Positions 1 through 2,508 of a stretch of 64,000 nucleotides of DNA are shown here, piece by piece. Within the stretch, counting starts at the first letter, position 1, and every line of letters begins with the position of its first letter. The stretch comes from Thiothrix litoralis. GTDB lineage: Bacteria; Pseudomonadota; Gammaproteobacteria; Thiotrichales; Thiotrichaceae. The notes under the pieces were generated by a model that saw only the letters and a list, made by a program, of their open reading frames with translations, made no database searches and was not told where the DNA came from. The position numbers and the translations under genes are program-made. The DNA lies in contig NZ_CP072801.1 in assembly GCF_017901135.1 (NCBI RefSeq), positions 3,097,501 through 3,161,500 on the forward strand. The letters are read 5' to 3'.

Positions 1-658
1 CACAATATTTCATAGAATCTTTCGTTTCCTCATCATCTTGACATGCTGACAAAAGAACAATAGTTCCTCTATTGTCCGAATGATTACCGCCATTAGTATC
101 ACAATGAAAACTCTTATGCCACTCCAAGTTTCGTGATAAAAAATCATTTACAAAGTCCTCACTTAGCTGCCTTGATCCTTCTTGTACAAGTGGAGAAATA
201 CGAGTTACAGTACCACTATGACAACTATCAGAGATAATAATAATTTTAGCTCCCTTGCTACTAATCAACCTCAAATAATAATAAATTTCATCATCTATAA
301 TAGGCTTATCATACAACGCCCAACATTCATCCCGACCGTCTGCTTCTGAATCTAATGCACAGGTATTTGGCAAAGAAAACCCATGCCCAGCAAAAGTTAG
401 TAAAAACACATCACCCTGCCCCAAACCACCATTTTCCTTACTAACCTCTAGCAAATAAGAAATAAGATTTTTTTTAGATGCCAATTCATCTCCATTTCTC
501 CTCGGAGAGGACAAAAACTTTGTTTTGAACCCTCGACTTTTTGCGATCAACCCCATTAGACGCATATCATTAATGCAATTATCTAAAGGCTTCTTGTGTC
601 CATAAAATCTTTCATCTATAGCATTTACGCCTAAATGCAACGACCAACACTTACCCAT
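1..658 (-). CDS. Metacaspase (peptidase C14, p20 domain), 3' end beyond window
   Basis: The minus-strand frame starts at ATG 658 and stays open to the window edge, giving 219 residues of a longer protein. The catalytic dyad of clan CD caspase-like cysteine peptidases is visible: His92 in FAGHG at the end of a hydrophobic beta strand, and Cys146 in DSCHSG. The N-terminal LHLGVNAID and the spacing between dyad residues fit bacterial and plant metacaspases, which cleave after Arg or Lys. An AAGGAG ribosome site lies in the 9-base gap after the lipoprotein gene, so it is the last visible gene of a three-gene operon. No signal peptide is seen, so a cytoplasmic location is inferred. The DNA is clearly AT-richer than the rest of the window, suggesting acquisition. 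What follows the p20 region cannot be seen. Confidence 0.88.
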   Translation of the reverse strand, partial: MGKCWSLHLGVNAIDERFYGHKKPLDNCINDMRLMGLIAKSRGFKTKFLSSPRRNGDELASKKNLISYLLEVSKENGGLGQGDVFLLTFAGHGFSLPNTCALDSEADGRDECWALYDKPIIDDEIYYYLRLISSKGAKIIIISDSCHSGTVTRISPLVQEGSRQLSEDFVNDFLSRNLEWHKSFHCDTNGGNHSDNRGTIVLLSACQDDEETKDSMKYC

Positions 659-667
659 AATCACTCC

Positions 668-1645
668 TTAATTCCATGATTCATTCTTTGGCTCTTCATT
701 GTTAGAATCATTAGCTATCTCTTTGTTGCTGTCATCACCTCTTTTTTCCTCACTATTTTCATATTCAAGTACACTATTCAATGTCGCACTGTATGCTGTT
801 AATGCCTTCTCTCCTACTGCCGTATCCACAGAAGAGTATTTTTTCATGCCGCCACCACCTTCTTGGAACTGAATAGTCAAGGTTTTATCAGAGAACATAC
901 CTGAACGTATCGGAGCAAAAGCGAACTGTCCTCCTTGTAAAAATGACTTGTAATACTCATGTATAACTTTATTAGATTTCAAAATCTGAATTTTAACAGG
1001 CACGGGGATTCTATAAGGAATTCCCTTCAAGGATTCAACGCTGTTGCTATCAATCGAATATACCACATTCAAATTAACTGGGCTAACTATCCTCAATGAG
1101 TGTGTACCATCCATTATATCACCTTCTGCCTCAAAATATTTATCGCCAACTTGATGAAAAACAAGAGACGATGGGTCAATAATTTCTGTCCTATCAACCG
1201 GAACATCCCCCCCTCTAGTCATTTTAGCGACATTAATAGCTAATTTAGTTAAATTAGTCAAAACCTCATTTGTTTTATCTTTCCATGTAAGATTAAAATC
1301 AGTCATAATGCCAGAATCACTAACCACAATTTCCATTTTTTCAGCATCTTTAAAAAAACCTCTGGCATCATCAGGATTTAATAAAAATTTCTGCTCTACA
1401 TCAGGAATAACAGTCGTATTAACTGAAACAGACTTATCATTAACATCAACAACACTCTTGTCAAAGGTATTGTATTTTACTTCAACAAGGGTTTTTGGCA
1501 AATAAAATAAAATTCCTTCTTCTACTTCGCTGCTATCTTTGCCAATAGGTTTTACCTCTATTACTTTACTGCAAGAAGCAAGTAAACTAACAGAAGCCAC
1601 AACCAAATATATTACTCTTAAATTAAAAATGGGTTTAATTCTCAT
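668..1645 (-). CDS. Lipoprotein of unknown function in the caspase operon
   Basis: The 325-residue product begins with a basic N-terminus, a hydrophobic stretch and the lipobox LLASC (Cys25), so it is predicted to be lipidated and membrane anchored. The body is beta-rich with no catalytic motif I recognise. Residues around 45-52 read GILFYLPK, weakly reminiscent of the YALPKT opening of the DUF4831 family, but that is only an impression. The last 35 residues are acidic and low complexity (Asn, Glu, Ser, Asp), probably disordered. A GGAG site precedes ATG 1645, which is 30 bases after the upstream caspase-like gene, and the stop is 9 bases before the metacaspase start. Cotranscription is likely, so it may be a membrane partner, substrate or sensor for the proteases. 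That role is inference. Confidence 0.8.
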   Translation of the reverse strand: MRIKPIFNLRVIYLVVASVSLLASCSKVIEVKPIGKDSSEVEEGILFYLPKTLVEVKYNTFDKSVVDVNDKSVSVNTTVIPDVEQKFLLNPDDARGFFKDAEKMEIVVSDSGIMTDFNLTWKDKTNEVLTNLTKLAINVAKMTRGGDVPVDRTEIIDPSSLVFHQVGDKYFEAEGDIMDGTHSLRIVSPVNLNVVYSIDSNSVESLKGIPYRIPVPVKIQILKSNKVIHEYYKSFLQGGQFAFAPIRSGMFSDKTLTIQFQEGGGGMKKYSSVDTAVGEKALTAYSATLNSVLEYENSEEKRGDDSNKEIANDSNNEEPKNESWN

Positions 1646-1674: not shown

Positions 1675-2394
1675 TTATAACCATTCATCATTTGAAACAA
1701 GAACTTCAGAAGCTGTACCTATGTCATCTAATGAGTAGTAAACAGTTCGACACCCAGCATAAAACATTGCATTAATTCGACTAGAACCGAAATATCTTTT
1801 CAATGAATCAAACTTCAGAAGTCTTTCATAAAAAATTTTGCTTTGCCCTCGAAAAGGATAATCCACAGGAAAAACATATACTCCATCGGAAGTCTGGAAC
1901 CCATGCCCTGTCAAATAAATTAGTGACACATCTGCATTTTTCGAAAGAGCATGAAAACCATCCAGTATAACTTCTATTTCCATACATTGAGGGTCAATAG
2001 ACATGATGGTATCAAACCCTGATTTCATCAAAGACTGCGAAATACGCTGCATATCATAACTCGCCCCTAATAAGGGTCGAACCTCATCATGATAACTAGA
2101 AAAAATCATGACAAGAGCTACCCTTTTCTCATTATCTGGTACTGGTAATATTTGCCAATTATCAATATCATCTTCAACAGGAACCACTGGAATCTGAAAT
2201 CCATGGCTTTTTACTTTCGTCAATTCAACTAACTGATGTTTAAAGTCTTTGAAGCTGAGAATCTCATATCCCAATAATTCAACTAACGCACTTGCAAATG
2301 GATTACCACCACTCTCATCTTTATCAAGTGTTGGCCTACCTTTTTGGGAAGCATAAAAATAAGAAATATCGAGATTATTAGTTAATAAATCCAT
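1675..2394 (-). CDS. Caspase-like protein with p10-like segment ahead of p20-like domain
   Basis: The 239-residue protein has a complete p20-like fold region from about residue 91 (RVALVMIF) to 220, with His164 in LTGHG and Cys215 in FYAGCR. In typical bacterial caspase-like proteins the Cys motif is DACR or DSCHSG; here the preceding Asp is replaced, so activity is uncertain. Residues 8-45 (YASQKG, then GGNPFASAL) resemble the small-subunit motif that normally follows p20, as in YATAPG..NSPFTAAL. The order is therefore p10-like then p20-like, with little room for a p10 after residue 220. It may be a truncated tandem caspase or a rearranged one. The frame is open for about 18 codons upstream of ATG 2394 but has no good start there. 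First gene of the operon with the lipoprotein and metacaspase; AT-rich. Confidence 0.78.
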   Translation of the reverse strand: MDLLTNNLDISYFYASQKGRPTLDKDESGGNPFASALVELLGYEILSFKDFKHQLVELTKVKSHGFQIPVVPVEDDIDNWQILPVPDNEKRVALVMIFSSYHDEVRPLLGASYDMQRISQSLMKSGFDTIMSIDPQCMEIEVILDGFHALSKNADVSLIYLTGHGFQTSDGVYVFPVDYPFRGQSKIFYERLLKFDSLKRYFGSSRINAMFYAGCRTVYYSLDDIGTASEVLVSNDEWL

Positions 2395-2508
2395 ACTAAC
2401 CTCTTTGAATATCCGCCAGTGCCATTTTTCAACAATACTCGGAAGGAATTATTCATATTGACTAAACTTCCTGTAAAGAATAGCTTTTATATAAAATAAT
2501 GAAATATA

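Follow-up and report, generated by a model that had tools for sequence, protein, structure and literature searches.

Can a bacterial caspase-type protease be built with its small subunit (p10) in front of its catalytic large subunit (p20)? This question is raised by a gene located on the minus strand at positions 1675..2394 of the window, i.e., the whole 64,000-nucleotide stretch of Thiothrix litoralis DNA analyzed here. The gene encodes a protein of 239 aa, for which the original prediction proposed three readings: the surviving half of a two-caspase protein, a caspase with a permuted small subunit, or a pseudo-protease lacking its own p10. We conclude that permutation is the right one among the three, the function itself being predicted from the sequence, and we consider with good confidence that the gene codes for a bacterial caspase-type protease that was circularly permuted in nature. 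The order of the parts and its conservation, the occurrence of the two catalytic residues and the resemblance of the predicted fold to an engineered circularly permuted caspase-2 (cpCasp2) were established computationally.

Order of the p10 and p20 parts

The assignment of the gene draws on its open reading frame, its PF00656 match, its homologues, doubled-sequence and p10-profile tests, and a structure match. The p10 small-subunit part corresponds to residues 9-71 (2182..2370, minus strand, as for all the features of the window given below), as delimited by the p10 profile alignment and the secondary structure of the model. The p20 catalytic part corresponds to residues 90-218 (1741..2127), as delimited by the PF00656 match and the strands and helices of the model. 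The former carries the YASQKG (residues 14-19) and GGNPFASAL (29-37) motifs; the latter carries TGHG (162-165) and AGCR (213-216), which contain the predicted catalytic residues His164 (codon at 1903..1905) and Cys215 (1750..1752). Both residues are invariant in the three full-length copies of the gene, and the Cys is found in 33/33 ordinary relatives. Cys215 lies 24 residues from the C-terminus, and the frame, its strand and its motif positions were all as originally read. The open frame extends 18 codons beyond the ATG frame, to 257 aa, as had also been noticed; this extension had been taken as a trace of a lost N-terminal part, an interpretation that is not supported. Indeed, a ribosome-binding-site-like GAGG, recognized by sequence reading, lies 5 nt before the ATG (2400..2403), and in the homologue of a second genome of the genus (G011) the open frame is of 228 aa, being closed by an in-frame stop only 4 codons ahead of the ATG.

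The native 239-aa protein matches PF00656 from residue 90 to 179 (Pfam, 6e-10), covering model positions 1-101 out of 233, and the G011 protein covers positions 1-129. The p20 of the window protein reaches 39.6 bits, for a curated PF00656 cut-off of 21.4, and H164 and C215 provide the His-Cys pair of peptidase family C14 in the three copies. The presence of p10 at the N-terminus sets the protein apart from orthocaspases (p20 without p10), and the presence of both catalytic residues from pseudo-orthocaspases (His-Cys pair lost). On the other hand, p10 is N-terminal to p20, which is the order of type III metacaspases. No PADLOC or NCBIfam family was above its curated cut-off for this protein. 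The residue located two positions before the Cys is Ala213, versus Asp in 33/33 ordinary relatives, where we take this Asp to be part of the acidic specificity pocket. In the p10 part, D24 is invariant in the permuted copies, and the p10 profile has a conserved Asp at the aligned position.

The swapped order was evaluated using profiles derived from a panel of 33 ordinary caspases retrieved through their p20 similarity (L013-L041, L044-L046, and L048); L012, L042, L043, and L047, which are copies of the permuted gene, were excluded from this panel, and L001-L011 were unused. When the N-terminal residues 1-88 of the window protein were scored, the p10 profile gave 19.7 bits over residues 9-71, and it gave 22.1 bits over residues 10-79 of the G011 homologue. 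When each sequence was shuffled 2,000 times, the real score was never reached, the top shuffle being at 6.0 for both. Thus, judged by these scores, the p10 resemblance of the N-terminus is more than chance. Using the whole-domain profile, the score of the window protein rose from 74.9 bits for p20 alone to 95.4 when the N-terminus was moved behind p20, and that of the G011 protein from 80.8 to 90.0. With shuffled N-termini, 0/1,000 reached the rotated score (tops of 77.9 and 84.8, respectively). The p10-like stretch proposed to precede p20 is, therefore, well corroborated. Alone, the N-terminal 89 residues give no Pfam match in either copy. When the window protein was doubled, the PF00656 match became unbroken: it starts at residue 90, passes the C-terminus and continues over residues 1-42 of the copy that follows (profile positions 1-192 out of 233). 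Doubling the G011 protein likewise gave an unbroken match, into residues 1-69 of the second copy (profile positions 1-223 out of 233).

Homologues, distribution and descent

The search for homologues with the same order, one of the checks suggested at the outset, was successful. Full-length ones are present in two of the 15 other genomes of the genus, G011 and G003, each encoding a protein of 224 aa with the p10 part first. Among 95 related genomes searched, matches over residues 7-218 were obtained in these two only, at 36% identity; aligned with the window protein, the two homologues are 35% identical to it. Across the whole order, 3/63 genomes (the one of the window included) match all 224 model positions, and all three lie within the 16 genomes of the genus. 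The identity to the window protein amounts to 29/83 in p10 and 46/134 in p20, so that, from these alignments, the two parts appear about equally conserved across copies. Of the 20 differences that separate the G011 and G003 genes, 11 are synonymous and 9 are nonsynonymous, giving a dN/dS of about 0.23 by simple count, in a full-length same-order set of three sequences in which these two are near copies of each other. Because of the same-order homologues, the even p10 and p20 identities and this ratio, the gene seems to be kept under selection in the p10-p20 order. The G003 genome also contains a truncated second copy (L008:7889-8275), limited to the C-terminal half of p20 and located beside a transporter-like gene that is likewise present a second time; it is a local duplication with p10 lost.

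In the phylum, 71/398 genomes have matches and, among the matches listed, only that of the window's own genome reaches the p10 part, the others beginning at residue 75 or later. In the class, matches were found in 29/369 genomes, and the p10 part is covered in one of 48 rows, again that of the window's own genome; three other rows starting before residue 70 were examined by reading their sequences, which ruled out a p10-first order. The class of G440 gave matches in 25/385 genomes at E <= 1e-8, all p20 only. Eight short frames were picked as the likeliest hidden cases, and the seven that passed the motif filter (all but L076) have p20 at the front. These rarity counts come from genomes that are samples, through whole-genome searches within this phylum, and a too-diverged p10 would appear in them as p20-only. 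No relative of the permuted protein was detected in genome contigs (protein and alignment queries) or in viral contigs. By tblastn, the G011 protein gave nothing in phage records and one p20-only match in plasmids, and the window protein matched 101 plasmid records, 0 of them with 80% query coverage.

In a p20 tree of 38 bacterial rows, the three permuted copies cluster together (support 100/99) in the midst of ordinary D-A-C-R caspases; their branch is long and the forks nearest to it are weak. Given this placement, a single permutation event is possible, and an ordinary bacterial caspase would be its likeliest source.

Predicted fold, neighborhood and mechanism

The AlphaFold2 model obtained from the three-sequence alignment has a mean pLDDT of 60.3 and a pTM of 0.62. 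The prediction made from the window sequence alone reached only a pLDDT of 31.7, and the model therefore rests on a small alignment. It comprises a strand (11-17), two helices (32-41 and 48-63), a short strand (67-70), and the p20 elements (91-218). In Foldseek, ranks 1, 2, 3, and 5 are occupied by cpCasp2, which also holds ranks 1-2 in VIA-align, with Z scores of 15.3 (rmsd 3.9, 194 residues, model residues 5-219) and 15.2. The best unpermuted chain in VIA-align, caspase-11, is far below (Z 10.3, rmsd 5.6, 139 residues), in a list where many animal caspase chains are the large subunit only and where the single-chain MALT1 also aligns over p20 only. Hence, a model of moderate confidence matches an engineered circularly permuted caspase fold over the whole chain, in permuted order. 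The structure prediction that had been recommended thus came out on the side of permutation, as did the homologues and the doubled and rotated profile tests.

The permuted gene has a GC content of 35%, versus 54% for positions 4001-64000 of the window, and seems, from its sequence context, to head a low-GC operon-like run. This run comprises, in order, the permuted gene, the genes for a 325-aa lipoprotein and a 292-aa ordinary caspase, and that for a 162-aa protein, all at 34-36% GC. The predicted lipoprotein gene (668..1645) lies 29 nt downstream of the permuted gene, has a homologue beside a caspase gene in the G010 genome, and encodes a protein without Pfam, NCBIfam or PADLOC family. The ordinary p20-p10 caspase gene, of DSCHSG type (1..664), runs off the edge of the window (complete at L006:13786-14664), and its product possesses a p10 region at the C-terminus (PF00656 match up to profile position 194 out of 233). 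The set formed by the lipoprotein, the DSCHSG caspase, and the 162-aa protein (668-1645 and 1-664 in the window; L006:13239-14664) adjoins histidine kinase and response regulator genes. In G010 (L054:7300-10179), the counterparts of the lipoprotein, the ordinary caspase, and the 162-aa protein show identities of 28%, 34%, and 72%, and also adjoin histidine kinase and response regulator genes; an extra gene encodes a 160-aa lipoprotein-like protein, and no trace of the permuted gene was found at this set. The G010 arrangement indicates that these genes form a separate unit, to which the permuted gene is an addition in the window. Neither the lipoproteins nor the 162-aa protein belong to a Pfam family. 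A homologue of the 162-aa protein is split in two frames by an internal TGA in another genome (G008:C6:749014-749504), and a TnpB-like transposase-associated gene, named by sequence reading, is located within a few kb of this operon (L006:8611-9843).

The G011 and G003 copies adjoin a transporter-like gene, and there neither the lipoprotein nor an ordinary-caspase match was detected at the cut-offs used. The ORFs located beside the G011 copy (284, 129, and 96 aa) and beside the G003 copy (264 aa) gave no useful family. In G003, two TIR-domain genes (L008:14668-15592) are found some 2.6 kb upstream of the permuted gene; they may hint at a defence-rich neighborhood.

How could such a protein work? 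In animal caspases, the activation cut falls between p20 and p10. In the permuted protein, the new chain ends would fall at this same place, i.e., after the p20 strand that bears the catalytic Cys and ahead of the first p10 strand, and a short linker, at about residues 72-89, would connect the end of p10 with the start of p20. By analogy with cpCasp2, the chain would fold directly into an active-like single-chain form without any zymogen step. The protein is, thus, most likely a single-chain, constitutively foldable protease without need of inter-subunit cleavage, its activity being inferred from this analogy. If no inter-subunit cut is needed, control must lie elsewhere, for instance in expression, a ligand or ion, an inhibitor, a partner, or the substrate supply. 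In the window genome, the protein might act with the ordinary caspase and the lipoprotein of the operon in a proteolytic response set off by stress or conflict; these proposed partners are not common to G011 and G003, where the permuted gene occurs without them. Moreover, an altered specificity or a weak activity is possible, given Ala213 in place of Asp: the Arg/Lys specificity of metacaspases is ascribed to an acidic pocket in the accessible text of PMC5756287.

Several other explanations have to be weighed against permutation. The gene could be the remnant of a tandem two-caspase protein that lost its first p20 and its last p10, the leftover p10-p20 pair not working as one domain. Tandem duplication followed by loss of the outer parts is a usual route to circular permutation, and both the 18 open codons before the ATG and the truncated second copy of G003 would fit such a history. 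However, the same boundaries are kept in two further genomes at 35% identity, the p10 part is conserved as much as p20, the dN/dS between G011 and G003 is about 0.23, and neither a longer homologue with an extra N-terminal p20 nor, by tblastn, any upstream p20 was found among the 63 genomes of the order and in the nearby DNA. As a description of the present state, the surviving-half reading is therefore unsupported and highly improbable, while a past tandem intermediate is possible as the origin of the permutation. The N-terminal p10 could also complete the active site of another p20, that of the neighboring caspase or that of a second molecule in a swapped dimer. An ordinary caspase gene does lie in the same operon-like run, and a monomer prediction is compatible with a swapped dimer, but the neighboring caspase already has a C-terminal p10 region, the permuted gene of G011 and G003 does without such a partner, and both parts of the monomer model can be superposed on the single chain of cpCasp2. 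Such a split or swapped enzyme is improbable.

A catalytically dead permuted caspase, serving as scaffold, regulator or decoy, would account for A-G-C in place of D-x-C, i.e., for the loss of the acidic residue two before the Cys, and pseudo-orthocaspases are known in bacteria (PMC6426788, in part). Those described there lose the His-Cys pair, whereas His164 and Cys215 are invariant in 3/3 copies, and we consider a dead enzyme rather unlikely; a pseudo-protease without its own p10, as originally envisaged, is not supported, given the p10 part itself and the retained pair, activity being a prediction. Finally, the p10-p20 order is the same as in type III metacaspases (excerpts of PMC8455989 and PMC6426788), which could suggest descent from these algal enzymes, with gene transfer from or to eukaryotes. 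The p20 part groups, weakly and in a tree of bacterial rows only, with ordinary-order bacterial D-A-C-R caspases, and such a descent appears barely credible. 

Coming back to the permutation, we slightly favor the broader view of a natural parallel to the engineered reversed caspases, namely that, in one bacterial genus, the chain ends were shifted to the activation-cleavage site, giving rise to a single-chain protease without subunit cleavage, and to a prokaryotic p10-first architecture that arose separately from algal type III metacaspases.

Comparison with known systems

If this reading is true, a p10-first caspase in prokaryotes is an architecture absent from the results of the 2019 survey. 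As reported in the available sections of PMC6426788, this survey of 11,208 prokaryotic p20 sequences detected no type III metacaspase, a p10 score of 30 being the minimum required. The present proteins might well escape such a cut-off, since they reach 19.7 and 22.1 bits with a different, self-built profile, and surveys with strict p10 score cut-offs could overlook p10-first proteins of this sort. We found no description of a natural permuted or prokaryotic p10-first caspase in the portions of the open-licence literature consulted, and the accessible parts of PMC8580257, PMC8195603, PMC3482391, and PMC12914765 describe no natural permuted caspase.

The closest p20 relatives found are ordinary-order bacterial caspase-family proteins and type I metacaspases, 33 of which were used here. 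They share with the permuted protein the p10 motif YATxPG..D..GxNSPFxxALxxH, QxP, but differ by having p20 before p10 and by being mostly long multidomain proteins. Orthocaspases also resemble it by their bacterial p20 with a His-Cys pair; they are devoid of p10, whereas the permuted protein carries one at its front. Type III metacaspases, in which p10 precedes p20, have been described from algae of secondary endosymbiosis (passages of PMC5756287, PMC8455989, and PMC6426788). The algal GtMC2 and PtMCA-IIIc share with the window protein this order and the His-Cys pair. On the contrary, type III metacaspases are algal only as reported and calcium-dependent, and PtMCA-IIIc cuts after Arg, while the window protein is bacterial and without acidic residue two before the Cys. 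The p10 start of type III metacaspases contains a conserved Asp linked to calcium binding (PMC6426788, in the text available), and D24 may be the same functional Asp. We refrain from using the class name "type III metacaspase", the likeness, as seen in sequence, being one of order.

In animal caspases, control is exerted by the cut that separates the large subunit from the small one, a step that engineers bypass by swapping the two subunits. With a bacterial enzyme in which this swap is natural, it becomes directly testable whether the inter-subunit cut is dispensable in prokaryotic caspases, how a protease without such a cut stays in check, and whether the p10-first order arose more than once, in algae and in bacteria. 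On the engineered side, reversed caspases-3 and -6 (Srinivasula et al. 1998, as cited in PMC7760212) preceded cpCasp2, and the permuted caspases made before it, with one exception, still self-cut at the linker. The constitutively active, single-chain cpCasp2 reaches its active fold without cleavage owing to the subunit switch (PMC7760212, for the parts accessible). Like cpCasp2 (PDB 8vp4 and 9c2y), the permuted protein has its small subunit first, a short linker, and its ends between the Cys strand and p10; unlike cpCasp2, which was man-made from human caspase-2 and with which it shares 13-19% identity in structural alignments, it is natural and bacterial.
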